NCBI RefSeq assembly: GCF_030409835.1
Contig: NZ_JAUFQO010000001.1
Location: forward strand, 310,001 to 374,000
Direction: 5' to 3'
DNA length: 64,000 nt
From: Lutimonas halocynthiae
GTDB lineage: Bacteria > Bacteroidota > Bacteroidia > Flavobacteriales > Flavobacteriaceae
In this document: piece after piece, positions 11,811 through 16,057 of the stretch
Layout of the letters: each line of letters starts with the position of its first letter
Numbering within the stretch: the stretch's first letter is position 1
Notes under the pieces: model-generated
Told to the model about the DNA's origin: nothing
Databases searched by the model: none
The model's input: only the letters and a program-made list of their open reading frames with translations
Position numbers and translations under genes: made by a program

Positions 11811-11934
11811 ATGAAAAATTGGAATTTCAATATGCAAATAAACGAATTTTTGTCATATTCGCTCTGATTTAGAAGAATTTTAAGCCCATAGTATAGTTAT
11901 TATTGAAGAATATTCAATCTTTTTTAAAAAACAC

Positions 11935-11964
11935 TTGCAATTGGAAAATTAATTCATAGATTTG
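11935..11964 (+). promoter_or_regulatory. Promoter of the aromatic amino acid operon
   Basis: TTG (11935-11937), an exact 19-nt spacer and TAGATTTG (11957-11964) match the Bacteroidota promoter consensus fully. Transcription should start near 11970, about 14 nt before the leader peptide ATG and about 165 nt before pheA. Confidence 0.8.
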
Positions 11965-11983
11965 CTGCCTAATTTTGATTTTA

Positions 11984-12040
11984 ATGACTATATCTGTACA
12001 AATTACTAACTGGTTTTACTTTTATTTTTTTACAAAATAA
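11984..12040 (+). CDS. Leader peptide of the aromatic amino acid operon attenuator
   Basis: This 18-codon reading frame, too short for routine gene finding, reads MTISVQITNWFYFYFFTK and then TAA. Codons 10-16 (12011-12031) are seven aromatic residues in a row: Trp, Phe, Tyr, Phe, Tyr, Phe, Phe. It begins about 14 nt after the predicted transcription start and ends just before a segment that can pair with the 5' arm of a terminator. This is the arrangement of PheL-type leader peptides in enterobacteria, where ribosome stalling on scarce aminoacyl-tRNA prevents termination. It sits directly in front of genes for phenylalanine and tyrosine synthesis. There is no direct evidence of translation, but the combination is very unlikely by chance. 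Confidence 0.8.
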   Translation: MTISVQITNWFYFYFFTK

Positions 12041-12112
12041 AAGAAGAGACTTTTGATGTATAGATCAATTATAATAACATATTAAGTCTCGTTTTAACGA
12101 GGCTTTTTTTTT
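12019..12112 (+). promoter_or_regulatory. Transcription attenuator (alternative stems and terminator) before pheA
   Basis: Three mutually exclusive stems are visible. The pause stem pairs 12019-12028 (CTTTTATTTT) with 12034-12043 (AAAATAAAAG). The antiterminator pairs 12046-12052 (GAGACTT) with 12084-12090 (AAGTCTC), extendable by four pairs past one mismatch to 12041/12095. The terminator pairs 12085-12092 with 12097-12104 (AGTCTCGT, loop TTTA, ACGAGGCT, one G-U) and is followed by nine T residues (12104-12112). A ribosome stalled on the aromatic codons would free 12041-12052 to form the antiterminator. A ribosome reaching the stop at 12038-12040 would cover it and allow termination. Confidence 0.8.
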
Positions 12113-12133
12113 ATGTGTAACTCAAAAGAAAAA

Positions 12134-12970
12134 ATGAAGATCGCAATTCAGGGTATAAAAGGTTCTTTCCACCATATCGTCGCCAATAAATATTTTGGTG
12201 AGGATATTGAATTAGTGGAATGTATGTCTTTCACTGATATCCCTACCTTGTTGAATGAAGACAAGGTGGATAGTGCTGTAATGGCTATTGAAAATTCGAT
12301 TGCCGGAGCTATTCTTCCGAATTATTCTTTGATAGATGAGTTTGACTTGAGTATTGAAGGTGAGGTATATATAAATATTCACCATCACCTGATGGCACTG
12401 AAGGGGCAAAAAATTAGCGATATTAAGGAAGTTTGGTCGCATCCTATGGCACTGTTACAGTGCAGAAAGTTTTTCAGGAACAGACCTGAAATAAAACTGA
12501 TAGAAGATAAAGATACAGCAGAAGTAGCAAAAAGAATCCAAGACAATAAAATTAAAGGTGTGGCAGCTGTTGCAAGTAAAATGGCCGCAGAAATGTATGG
12601 ATTAGAGATAATTGAAGATGATATACAGACCATTAAAAACAATTCAACTCGATTCTTTGTTCTTAAAAAAAACAACGATAGCCCTTATCATCCTAGTAAG
12701 CTTGGTTCTATAAAGGATAAGGCTTCGGTTAAATTTGTGACCAAACACGATGCTGGAAGCTTGGCTGAAATACTAGATATTTTTGGGAAGCATGACCTGA
12801 ATTTGACCAAAATTCAATCACTTCCGATAATAGATAAGCCTTGGAATTATGCCTTCTTTATCGATTTGGTCATCGATGATTTTGTATTGTATAAAAATGC
12901 ATTACATCTCATTTCAAAGAAAGTCACACACCTGGAAGTATTGGGTGAATACCATCAAAATAGATTATAA
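12134..12970 (+). CDS. pheA: Prephenate dehydratase
   Basis: PheA converts prephenate to phenylpyruvate in phenylalanine synthesis. The 278-residue protein has a dehydratase domain (MKIAIQGIKGSFHH, VMAIENSIAGAI, AAVASKMAAEMYGL, and the catalytic STRF at residues 171-174) and a C-terminal ACT domain. In the ACT domain the usual Phe-binding motifs GAL and ESRP read GSL (208-210) and QSLP (228-231). The ATG at 12134 is chosen over the upstream in-frame ATG at 12113, because 12113 directly abuts the attenuator's T run and would start inside the terminator; 12134 has an A/G-rich stretch before it and gives the family start. It is the first gene of a tight four-gene operon. Confidence 0.95.
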   Translation: MKIAIQGIKGSFHHIVANKYFGEDIELVECMSFTDIPTLLNEDKVDSAVMAIENSIAGAILPNYSLIDEFDLSIEGEVYINIHHHLMALKGQKISDIKEVWSHPMALLQCRKFFRNRPEIKLIEDKDTAEVAKRIQDNKIKGVAAVASKMAAEMYGLEIIEDDIQTIKNNSTRFFVLKKNNDSPYHPSKLGSIKDKASVKFVTKHDAGSLAEILDIFGKHDLNLTKIQSLPIIDKPWNYAFFIDLVIDDFVLYKNALHLISKKVTHLEVLGEYHQNRL

Positions 12971-12972
12971 GC

Positions 12973-14121
12973 ATGTTATCTAAAGCGAAAAGATTAAATG
13001 ACGTTAAAGAGTATTACTTCTCCATTAAATTGAGGGAAGTCAGAGCGCTTATTGATCAAGGCAAGCCCATCATAAATCTAGGTATTGGTAGTCCGGACCT
13101 TTCTCCACCTGAATCAGTGATACATGCCTTGAAAAATGCAGATACACATGGGTACCAAAGTTATCAAGGACTTCCTGAGCTTAGAAAGGCGATAGCTTCT
13201 TTTTATGCAAAAAACTATAACGTAGATCTAAATTTTAAAAACCAAATATTGCCTTTAATGGGGTCTAAAGAAGGAATTCTTCATATTTCAATGGCGTTTT
13301 TAGACAAAGGTGACAAGGTGCTTATCCCAAACCCTGGTTATCCAACCTACGAATCAGTTACCAGATTATTAGAAGCAGAACCCTTATTGTATAATCTTAA
13401 AGAAGAAAATCAATGGTGGCCTGATCTTAAAGAAATTGAAAAGAATGACTTGAGCCATGTAAAAATCATGTGGGTCAATTATCCTCATATGCCTACAGGC
13501 AGCAATGCCAATGAAGAATTATTCAAAGAATTGATTGCTTTCGGTAAAAAGCATCAAATTTTAATCGTTAATGACAACCCGTATAGCTTTGTTCTAAATG
13601 ACGAACCAAAAAGTATTTTATCTATAGAAGGAGCAAAAGAAATCGCAATTGAATTGAACTCTCTCAGCAAAACTTTTAACATGGCTGGATGGAGAGTAGG
13701 TATGGTGGTAGGTGATGAAAACTATTTGGACGCGATTCTTAAGGTTAAAAGCAATATGGATTCAGGGATGTTTTACGGCATTCAAAAAGGAGCAATTGAA
13801 GCCTTAGGTTTGTCTTCACACTGGTTTGATGATATGAACCAAATATATAGAGATAGAAGAGACGTTATTTGGAAGATATGTGATGCATTAAATTGTACTT
13901 ATGACGAAGAAAGTTCTGGCTTATTTGTTTGGGCAAAAATCCCAGCAGGCAAAAAATCGGAAGAAATAACAGATCACATTCTTTATAATCATGATGTCTT
14001 CATTACGCCAGGAACAGTTTTTGGAGACCAAGGCGAAGGATATATCAGGTTCTCCCTTTGTATTGATGAACAGAAAATCTTGGAAGTCCTTGAACGGTTA
14101 AAAAAAATGGAACTGTCATGA
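12973..14121 (+). CDS. PLP-dependent aminotransferase, class I/II (aromatic operon)
   Basis: This is a fold-type I aminotransferase of 382 residues. The PLP Lys is K233 in SLSKTFNMAGWR; other landmarks are INLGIGSPDLSPP, HGYQSYQGLPELR, the LIPNPGYPTYES segment, VNYPHMPTGS (where many relatives have NPNNPTG) and VNDNPYSF with the cofactor Asp201. It starts two nt after pheA and overlaps tyrA by four nt. From its place between pheA and tyrA I infer that it transaminates phenylpyruvate or 4-hydroxyphenylpyruvate to Phe and Tyr, but aspartate or diaminopimelate aminotransferase relatives look similar, so the substrate is not settled. Confidence 0.88.
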   Translation: MLSKAKRLNDVKEYYFSIKLREVRALIDQGKPIINLGIGSPDLSPPESVIHALKNADTHGYQSYQGLPELRKAIASFYAKNYNVDLNFKNQILPLMGSKEGILHISMAFLDKGDKVLIPNPGYPTYESVTRLLEAEPLLYNLKEENQWWPDLKEIEKNDLSHVKIMWVNYPHMPTGSNANEELFKELIAFGKKHQILIVNDNPYSFVLNDEPKSILSIEGAKEIAIELNSLSKTFNMAGWRVGMVVGDENYLDAILKVKSNMDSGMFYGIQKGAIEALGLSSHWFDDMNQIYRDRRDVIWKICDALNCTYDEESSGLFVWAKIPAGKKSEEITDHILYNHDVFITPGTVFGDQGEGYIRFSLCIDEQKILEVLERLKKMELS

Positions 14122-14975
14122 AAAAAATAGCAATCATTGGACTAGGTCTGATTGGAGGATCATTAGCTCTTGAATTAAAAAAGAACTCATGGGCAACGAT
14201 CTATGGAATCGACAAAAATCCTGAACATGTTAATAAAGCCTTGGAATTAGGAATTATTTACCAAAAGGCAGGTTTGGAAATAATCCCAGAAATGGATGTT
14301 GTAATTATTGCAGTACCCGTAAATATAATTCCTGATTTATCAGTCAGTATATTAGATCATATCGGGGAAAACACCTTGGTGTTTGATGTGGGATCAACAA
14401 AATCTGCCGTTTGTGATGCGATAAGAAACCATAAAAGGAGACAGAATTTTGTGGCCTTACATCCTATTGCGGGAACAGAGTTTTCTGGCCCTGAAGCAGC
14501 CATTTATGATCTTTTTACTGATAAAGTAAATATTATTTGTGAAAGAAAATTAAGTAGCTCAACCATGGTGGACCGCGCGATTGATATTTTTGAGAACCTC
14601 AAAATGAAAAACGTGTTTATGGAGTCTGCTACCCAGCATGACACACATATTGCCTATGTTTCACACCTTTCTCATATTAGCTCCTTCATGCTTGGCAAAA
14701 CTGTGCTTGAAATAGAAAAGGACGAAAAGAACATCTTTAATATGGCCGGTAGTGGATTTGCTTCTACTGTTAGATTGGCCAAAAGTAATCCGGAAACCTG
14801 GACTCCTATTTTTTTACAAAATCGGGATAACTTATTAAAGTCACTTGAAGAATATATTAAAAACTTAAATCAATTTAAAGATATCTTAACTAGAAAATCA
14901 GCCGATGACGTTTTAAACATCATGCAAAACACAAATAGAATCAAAGACGTTTTGGCCGGAATTAAACATGAATGA
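14118..14975 (+). CDS. tyrA: Prephenate dehydrogenase
   Basis: TyrA oxidatively decarboxylates prephenate to 4-hydroxyphenylpyruvate in tyrosine synthesis. The 285-residue protein has an N-terminal Rossmann fold (AIIGLGLIGGSLALELKK, acidic end of strand two YGIDKNP), VVIIAVPVNIIPDL, FDVGSTKSAVCDAI and the substrate region FVALHPIAGTEFSGPEAA. A helical C-terminal domain follows, with THIAYVSHLSHISSFML. No fused chorismate mutase or ACT domain is present. It overlaps the aminotransferase by four nt (ATGA) and the next gene by four nt, signs of translational coupling. Confidence 0.94.
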   Translation: MKKIAIIGLGLIGGSLALELKKNSWATIYGIDKNPEHVNKALELGIIYQKAGLEIIPEMDVVIIAVPVNIIPDLSVSILDHIGENTLVFDVGSTKSAVCDAIRNHKRRQNFVALHPIAGTEFSGPEAAIYDLFTDKVNIICERKLSSSTMVDRAIDIFENLKMKNVFMESATQHDTHIAYVSHLSHISSFMLGKTVLEIEKDEKNIFNMAGSGFASTVRLAKSNPETWTPIFLQNRDNLLKSLEEYIKNLNQFKDILTRKSADDVLNIMQNTNRIKDVLAGIKHE

Positions 14976-16057
14976 TAATGGAAAACAAAAATTTTAGAAC
15001 ATGGTTGGATGCGATGGAATTAGCGCATCCCCTAGTAATAGCAGGACCATGTAGTGCAGAAAGTGAAGAGCAAGTGCTTGAGATCGCCCATGAGTTAAAA
15101 AACACAGACGCTACAGTTTTTAGAGCTGGTGTATGGAAACCCAGAACAAGACCTGGTTCCTTTGAAGGAAATGGCGCTATCGCATTGCCTTGGTTGAAAA
15201 AAGTTAAAGAAGAAACAGGCTTGTTAACCGCCATAGAAATTGCCAATGCGCAACATGCAAAATTAGCGCTTGAATTTGACATCGACATCCTTTGGATTGG
15301 CGCTCGTACAACTGTAAACCCTTTTGCCGTTCAAGAAATTGCTGATGCAATTCAAGGAACTGACAAAATCGTATTGGTAAAGAATCCTATAAACCCTGAT
15401 TTGGCCCTTTGGATTGGAGCCATTGAAAGGTTGCATAAAAAAGGTGTTACAAATTTAGGGGCTATTCATAGAGGGTTTTCTTCTTTTAGGAAATCAAACT
15501 ATAGAAACATCCCAAGTTGGCAAATACCTATTGATTTAAAAAGTAAGTACCCAACCTTACCGATCATAAATGATCCGTCACATATTTGTGGAAATCGAAC
15601 TGGACTATTTGACGTTTCTCAAACAGCGCTTGATCTTAAAATGGACGGACTTATCATTGAAACACATTGTGATCCTGACAAAGCCTGGAGTGATGCTCAA
15701 CAGCAGATTACTCCGTCCCGATTAGTTGAAATTATGGAGGGCTTAAAAGTTAGAAAGCCTCGTTTTGAACAAGAAGAATCACTTTCAAAGCTCAGTGCGC
15801 TGCGTAAAGAGATCAATGCTAAAGATGAGCAGTTGTTAGAAACACTTTCTGAAAGAATGCAAATCGTAGAGAACATTGGCAAGGCAAAAAAAGAGAGCAA
15901 TGTTGCTGTTCTTCAAAATGCAAGATGGAATGAAATTCTTGGTAAAGTAGTTGAAATAGGAGGCGAGCAAGGCTTGTCAAAAACTTTCATCGAAAAAATC
16001 TTTAAAGCGATCCACCAGGAATCTATCGCACATCAGGAAGAAATAATCAACGGTTAA
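14972..16057 (+). CDS. Bifunctional 3-deoxy-7-phosphoheptulonate synthase / chorismate mutase
   Basis: This is a fusion of DAHP synthase (first step of the shikimate pathway) and an AroQ-type chorismate mutase. Residues 1-250 form the KdsA-like DAHP synthase (LVIAGPCSAESEEQ, VFRAGVWKPRTRPGSFEG, WIGARTTVNPFAVQEIADA, LVKNPINPDL, INDPSHICGNR, LIIETHCDPDKAWSDAQQQ). Residues 265-361 form the helical mutase (LSALRKEINAKDEQLLETLSERM). So one protein provides both ends of the common pathway in an operon that draws chorismate toward Phe and Tyr. The start ATG overlaps the tyrA stop; a second in-frame ATG two codons later is also possible. Confidence 0.94.
   Translation: MIMENKNFRTWLDAMELAHPLVIAGPCSAESEEQVLEIAHELKNTDATVFRAGVWKPRTRPGSFEGNGAIALPWLKKVKEETGLLTAIEIANAQHAKLALEFDIDILWIGARTTVNPFAVQEIADAIQGTDKIVLVKNPINPDLALWIGAIERLHKKGVTNLGAIHRGFSSFRKSNYRNIPSWQIPIDLKSKYPTLPIINDPSHICGNRTGLFDVSQTALDLKMDGLIIETHCDPDKAWSDAQQQITPSRLVEIMEGLKVRKPRFEQEESLSKLSALRKEINAKDEQLLETLSERMQIVENIGKAKKESNVAVLQNARWNEILGKVVEIGGEQGLSKTFIEKIFKAIHQESIAHQEEIING

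Follow-up and report, generated by a model that had tools for sequence, protein, structure and literature searches.

In the enterobacterial pheA (pheL) attenuator, a short open reading frame with a run of Phe codons, a terminator and an alternative helix precede pheA, and in the E. coli trp attenuator the position of the ribosome picks either the antiterminator or the terminator. The pheL peptide is Phe-rich without Tyr, and in trp a 1:2 protector stem terminates those transcripts that are not translated. Bacteroidetes/Chlorobi are reportedly mentioned in the abstract of Vitreschak et al. 2004. In 2010, leader-peptide systems were described as demonstrated only in Proteobacteria and Actinobacteria, to which that year's study added the Firmicutes (PMC2965389), and a 2013 survey considered that amino-acid attenuators may stem from gamma-proteobacteria, with very few transfers (PMC3766115). 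Leader-like small ORFs have been described in Bacteroides (PMC7366714), and the Bacteroid-trp motif RF01692 is given as a candidate cis-regulatory RNA of Bacteroidetes in Table 1 of PMC2864571, whilst in Streptomyces the attenuator-like anatomy of ilvB and leuA failed mutation tests (PMC1262725). The available text of these five sources does not describe the present case.

The nearest description comes from Flavobacterium psychrophilum, for which a transcriptome-based study of 2021 reported strong indications of leader-peptide attenuation ahead of amino-acid operons, along with a structured 5' element at pheA, found also in other Flavobacteriaceae genera (PMC9723704); this is the same gene and the same family as here. 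Unlike the present analysis, the available text of that study gives no peptide, codon, helix, covariation or extent beyond the family. The statement in the preliminary description of our locus that no experimental demonstration was known in Flavobacteriia holds, as the nearest report, in its available text, offers transcriptome clues with no test of mechanism, and our literature search found no paper testing this pheA attenuator. Already known, then, are the kind of mechanism and, from the available text of PMC9723704, the pheA 5' element and the leader-peptide clues in F. psychrophilum; new here are the extent beyond the family, the dual-codon rule and the covariation.

We analysed a stretch of 64,000 nucleotides of Lutimonas halocynthiae DNA (the window), in which the region before pheA very probably encodes a ribosome-mediated transcription attenuator that senses how much charged Phe-tRNA and Tyr-tRNA is available. 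Leader-peptide attenuation of this Phe/Tyr operon had been put forward in the preliminary description, all of whose coordinates agree with the sequence, and the proposal gains strong support from conservation and covariation. The features are as follows:

11935..11964, + strand: promoter of Bacteroidetes type, TTG at 11935-11937, 19 nt, then TAGATTTG at 11957-11964 (from the sequence)
11984..12040, + strand: leader peptide ORF MTISVQITNWFYFYFFTK, 18 codons, stop TAA 12038-12040 (sequence; conserved aromatic-run leader upstream of pheA)
12011..12031, + strand: regulatory codons W-F-Y-F-Y-F-F, seven aromatic (aromatic run in 16/16 genus members with at least 150 nt upstream)
12019..12043, + strand: AT-rich hairpin across the aromatic codons (segment 1, possible pause or protector), a perfect 10-bp inverted repeat; not conserved
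12046..12052, + strand: antiterminator strand (segment 2) GAGACTT, pairs with 12084-12090 (covariation; near-constant position in relatives)
12084..12092, + strand: segment 3, common to antiterminator and terminator (helix listing; core columns pair both ways in relatives)
12097..12112, + strand: segment 4 and T9 tract, intrinsic terminator (terminator prediction; terminators after leaders in relatives)
12134..12970, + strand: pheA, prephenate dehydratase with ACT region, likely start 12134 and not 12113 (Pfam PDT 198.3 bits; ACT 26.4 bits)
12973..14121, + strand: class I/II aminotransferase (Pfam/NCBIfam; second gene of the conserved operon)
14118..14975, + strand: tyrA, prephenate dehydrogenase (NCBIfam 349.6 against a cut-off of 295)
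14972..16057, + strand: DAHP synthase fused to chorismate mutase (Pfam DAHP_synth_1 and CM_2)

In the mechanism that we propose, the expected transcription start lies no more than about 20 nt before the leader ATG. A shortage of Phe or Tyr would stall the ribosome in the aromatic run with its leading edge just before segment 2 (12046-12052), which, left free, would pair with segment 3 (12084-12090) as this emerges and block the terminator, so that pheA and the genes for the aminotransferase, TyrA and the DAHP synthase/chorismate mutase would be transcribed. When both Phe and Tyr are ample, the ribosome would reach the stop at 12038 and cover segment 2; segment 3 would then pair with segment 4, and RNA polymerase would halt in the T9 tract near 12112. 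The transcription start, leader translation, stalling and the regulatory response are inferred here from the sequence. The logic is that of pheL and, in letting ribosome position decide, of E. coli trp; the joint Phe/Tyr codons and the lack of a conserved protector stem are its apparent variant features.

The 18-codon ORF with its WFYFYFF run had been pointed out before, and it is indeed present from ATG 11984 to TAA 12040: a short upstream ORF with Phe/Tyr codons stands before a Phe/Tyr operon, its codons matching the end products. The pattern at 11935-11964 we take to be a Bacteroidetes-type promoter by its consensus. The strict motif TTG-N17-21-TANNTTTG no more than 75 nt before the leader start was found in 77 of 261 distinct leader-positive upstreams (mononucleotide shuffle rate 0.13%) and is missing in the other 184. 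An E. coli-type sigma-70 promoter was rejected, as none of the six promoter-like sites in 11840-12140 (shuffle mean 1.9) falls at 11935-11964; judged by sequence pattern, the Bacteroidetes type is the better fit for this putative promoter.

Downstream, the antiterminator helix and the intrinsic terminator with nine T that had been reported before pheA are both there in the sequence. GAGACTT at 12046-12052 complements AAGTCTC at 12084-12090, with one mismatch in the extension to 12041/12095, and the terminator stem 12084-12092/12097-12105, followed by nine T at 12104-12112, is the sole terminator-like site in the 301 bases of 11840-12140 (shuffle mean 0.0). The leader 11995-12115 (121 nt) is more stably folded than its shuffles (z -2.96), and so are the terminator part (z -3.93) and, taken by itself, the antiterminator part (z -2.76); the fold is ordinary (z -1.05) for the stretch between the likely transcript start and the end of segment 3. 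Three mutually exclusive stems had been proposed at the outset, and this point does not stand: in the minimum-energy fold of 11970-12092, the hairpin with its perfect 10-bp stem (12019-12028/12034-12043) and the antiterminator core coexist, overlap being limited to the antiterminator extension to 12041. Because the two form together, the real either/or lies between antiterminator and terminator. In a fold begun at 11995, segment 2 pairs with the aromatic run instead, and this change of partner between the two starting points (11995 and 11970) points to two states close in energy.

No known RNA family accounts for the element. T-box and the other Rfam families gave no match at gathering score in the whole window, and in a permissive scan of 11900-12200 the Phe_leader family RF01859 scored 18.1 bits (E 1.2), below its gathering score of 55, the other matches being unrelated and weak; a known family is ruled out at gathering scores in the window and in 12 loci, and in that permissive scan. 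The Bacteroid-trp motif RF01692 likewise has no gathering-score match in the window or in the 12 loci, which include those of the trpE-like gene, hisG and ilvD of the same genome.

The operon itself is conserved: tblastn shows the same gene order in 78 of the 80 named Flavobacteriaceae records (75 with ample downstream sequence, three with less), and of the remaining two, one has no tyrA match and the other is a record with pheA only. The ACT match of PheA (26.4 bits) lies slightly below the Pfam cut-off of 27. The first pheA ATG given by the ORF caller (12113) abuts the terminator T tract, and conservation favours 12134 over the 12113-12133 extension; homologues start near (M)K-I-A-I-Q-G.

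How widely is the leader conserved? Matches to pheA were obtained in 19/22 genus members, 274/299 sampled family members and 214/247 sampled phylum members, and the 171 distinct upstreams of at least 150 nt that we used are the better-scoring among the matches listed, some weak or fused pheA being left out. Also left out before counting were L003 and L019 (upstream below 150 nt), L020 (partial pheA without a start), L021 (contig end) and L001, a repeat of L002. At least six aromatic codons stood in the best eight-codon stretch of 138/171 upstreams, compared with 1/171 for reverse strands and 2.6 per 171 for dinucleotide shuffles. At least five stood there in 152/171; the latter level was reached by 16/16 genus and 109/112 family upstreams. 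A terminator follows the leader in 150 of the 152 leader-positive upstreams, L148 and L151 having none by the rule used. We defined a full signature as five of eight aromatic codons, a terminator within 110 nt and a complementary segment within 18 nt of the run. It occurs upstream of pheA in 16/16 genus loci, 108/112 family loci and 79/80 named Flavobacteriaceae (this set of 80 shares species with the unnamed family set, so that the counts do not add as independent), in 47/77 class loci outside the family and in 4/17 loci of other classes; within the window, it stands before one of the 64 ORFs of at least 100 aa, namely pheA. An alignment of relatives had been suggested from the start as a check, with non-conservation speaking against an attenuator, and both the aromatic codons and the alternative helices proved to be conserved.

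The full signature is missing from 30/77 class loci outside the family and from 13/17 of other classes, and at some of these signature-negative loci pheA stands alone or behind an EPSP synthase gene. In L072, L073 and L075, all of one genus, pheA lies directly behind an EPSP synthase-like gene (aroA) with no room for a leader; the one of these three tested, L072, was identified with Pfam at 264.9 bits. In the tree, the pheA of L310, which shares its genome with L075, branches as sister to the Flavobacteriaceae, although the genome belongs to another family. Several members of a different family showed no leader before pheA. A few full-signature negatives are not true absences: L032 has a leader with eight of eight aromatic codons some 960-1040 nt upstream of pheA, and in L033 the contig end cuts inside the apparent leader. 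Between leader and pheA in L032 lies a 198-aa ORF (649-1242) that apparently parts the attenuator from the operon; it is reminiscent of REP-associated transposases but has no Pfam match. Prephenate dehydratase was detected in only 89/296 and 73/246 sampled Bacteroidia, many having no detected match.

Every one of the 225 distinct leader peptides (254 positives) contains both Phe and Tyr codons, at a mix of F:Y of about 62:38, whereas pheL is Phe-rich without Tyr; the operon here makes both amino acids. This ratio brings an all-mixed set near to random mixing, so that both codons are used but separate selection of each is not implied. The preliminary description had gone further and suggested sensing of the whole aromatic pool, Trp included. 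That reading is not borne out: Trp occurs in 116/225 leaders, so that about half have no W and Trp is rejected as a conserved signal, and a separate WWW leader precedes the trpE-like gene. In the window's genus W is present in 6/16 leaders, and the other ten have R or Y in its place. Species with a Trp codon in the run, this one included, may receive a further signal from Trp, but this is not conserved. The leaders of the 148-row set together hold 821 F, 501 Y and 80 W, and 144/148 begin with ATG.

Could the peptide itself be the sensor? An aromatic nascent chain, perhaps together with free Phe or Tyr, might stall the ribosome from within the exit tunnel, with no role for tRNA charging. The RNA switch would appear identical, and a few residues do recur near the run (for example N-G before it and K-R after it). 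Those that follow the run, however, fall within segment 2 or close to it, so that RNA pairing accounts for their being conserved, whilst within the run F, Y and W interchange, and its length and offset vary, each leader having 7 to 13 aromatic codons in total. Stalling by an abundant amino acid would moreover have the wrong sign, giving read-through in times of plenty. We consider an arrest peptide improbable.

Under the preferred reading of tRNA charging, the constant element is geometry: the run, about 10 nt, then the antiterminator strand. The median distance from the run to the start of segment 2 is 10 nt (quartiles 9 and 11), with 147/148 loci within 4-16 nt, and the first in-frame stop falls between -10 and +24 of segment 2 in 142/148, against 86 and 69 in the other frames, a count that leans upward since leaders were selected as ORFs of at most 45 codons. 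Segment 2 was picked as the best complementary stretch, and the ribosome was given an assumed footprint of about 12-15 nt ahead. With this footprint masked, antiterminator pairing exceeds 0.5 in 148/148 loci for a stall at the first aromatic codon, in 147/148 at the last and in 0/148 at the stop, the zero following in part from this choice of segment 2 and the assumed footprint; mean pairing in the transcript to segment 3 is 0.62 when free, 0.96 and 0.93 in the run stalls and 0.01 at the stop. That a ribosome at the stop codon would mask the segment downstream of it, as had been suggested, is thus consistent with the geometry at the footprint assumed. (L069 was left out of the 149-row count and L069 and L163 out of the 148-row counts, their best ORF or terminator looking misplaced.)

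The pause stem, on the other hand, is not a conserved element: segment 2 pairs with upstream sequence above 0.5 in only 44/148 loci (8/16 in the genus, 36/132 outside it). Mean native upstream pairing is 0.297 against 0.225 for synonymous permutations, a weak excess; the native value lies above at least 18 of 20 permutations in 31/148 loci, and at or below two of 20 in 11/148, which hints only weakly at selection. A protector stem would seem, from these sequences, to be a lineage-specific addition. Ribosome-free antiterminator pairing exceeds 0.5 in 98/148 loci, and many leaders would probably read through if untranslated. Such read-through would be the most testable difference from E. coli trp, whose 1:2 stem terminates untranslated transcripts.

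Control of the terminator by something else, for example an RNA-binding protein or a metabolite, would make the aromatic ORF incidental, and leader translation is indeed deduced from sequence. Against this stand the aromatic leaders themselves, far above chance and always Phe/Tyr mixed before a Phe/Tyr operon, and the nearly constant spacing from run to segment 2. In addition, ORFs with matching codons precede trpE-like, hisG, ilvD and aspartokinase/homoserine dehydrogenase genes in the same genome, and an incidental ORF is, to our mind, very improbable. Before the trpE-like gene, which has anthranilate synthase component I domains, the leader MRNNTIHTWWWSLQSEKLVK (L346, 1328-1390) carries three Trp codons (WWW) and is followed by a terminator. 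Before hisG there is a His-rich leader MRTNTLHRHHIHTCTQAS (HRHHIH; L348, 1197-1253), and some 250-315 nt ahead of the start of ilvD, on the reverse strand, an Ile/Leu/Val leader MKYNNIILVTVIILSSIGIG (IILVTVII; L349), each again followed by a terminator. The aspartokinase/homoserine dehydrogenase gene is preceded by a Thr/Ile-rich ORF MQKIVNIHTSIRCHSTTATFTIITL (TTATFTIIT; L352, reverse complement 747-824), presumably of thrL-like logic.

Covariation bears on both helices. A first alignment used 56 of 66 reference rows, ten distant rows being omitted, which favours tidy columns, and its result held with all 66 diverse rows (drawn from the 148, each at most 130 nt long) of the final alignment. 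In the latter, 78.2% of antiterminator cells are paired and 71 carry changes on both sides, compared with 26.5 in shuffles; for the terminator the figures are 92.9% and 60, compared with 17.1. The earlier 56 rows gave a matching result (51 against 19.1 and 48 against 12.7, respectively). The covariation scores, 0.362 for the antiterminator and 0.415 for the terminator, exceed every shuffle, and all slid versions of the two helices fall far below, a one-column slide lowering the scores to 0.165-0.178 or less. Further pair types in the terminator are not clearly above shuffles (18 against 15.8, with 48/500 shuffles as high), and likewise in the 56-row version. Across the alignment one strand serves both antiterminator and terminator: 52-64 of the 66 sequences can form either pair at each of six core columns, but only 42, 23 and 18 can do so at the three end columns, so that the common helix has about six pairs. 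Segment 2 is complementary to segment 3 with a score of at least 16 in 118/149 loci, against 5-6 per 149 shuffles. When terminator arms were exchanged between species, native pairs stood out only moderately (native pair mean rank 0.83), because many species share a core.

Chance or base-composition bias, by which T-rich DNA before genes would be read as Phe and Tyr, can draw on an AT-rich region, on T-rich codons and on a five-of-eight cut that about 20 per 171 dinucleotide shuffles and 33/171 reverse strands pass, but is refuted, with a negligible probability left to it, by the covariation of both helices and by the full signature, which appeared in 0/2050 mononucleotide shuffles and 1/205 reverse complements.

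Beyond the class, the leader-bearing pheA of L354-L357 are scattered among class sequences, at three or more distinct positions, in a 47-row PheA tree with open forks and a distant outgroup only. All three partner genes follow pheA in the same order in L354 and L357; of these partners, L356 shows the aminotransferase plus a weak match to DAHP synthase, and L355 only a match to DAHP synthase. This suggests several transfers in which the leader may have travelled together with the operon or with pheA.

We tentatively posit a broader picture, as a possibility to which we would give somewhat less than even weight: an old attenuator family of the Bacteroidia, in which one mixed leader senses Phe and Tyr jointly through a two-state switch that has no conserved protector stem. 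In many of its species an untranslated leader would antiterminate by default, termination following only when the ribosome finishes the leader and sits on segment 2, and the cassette would have moved with the pheA operon into other classes.

Such switches have been little studied in this bacterial group. The mixed Phe/Tyr leader offers a clean case for asking whether one attenuator can integrate two amino acids. If such a family does extend through many Bacteroidia, with leaders in a single genome whose codons match Trp, His, Ile/Leu/Val and Thr operons, then attenuation would be a main mode of amino-acid control in the class.
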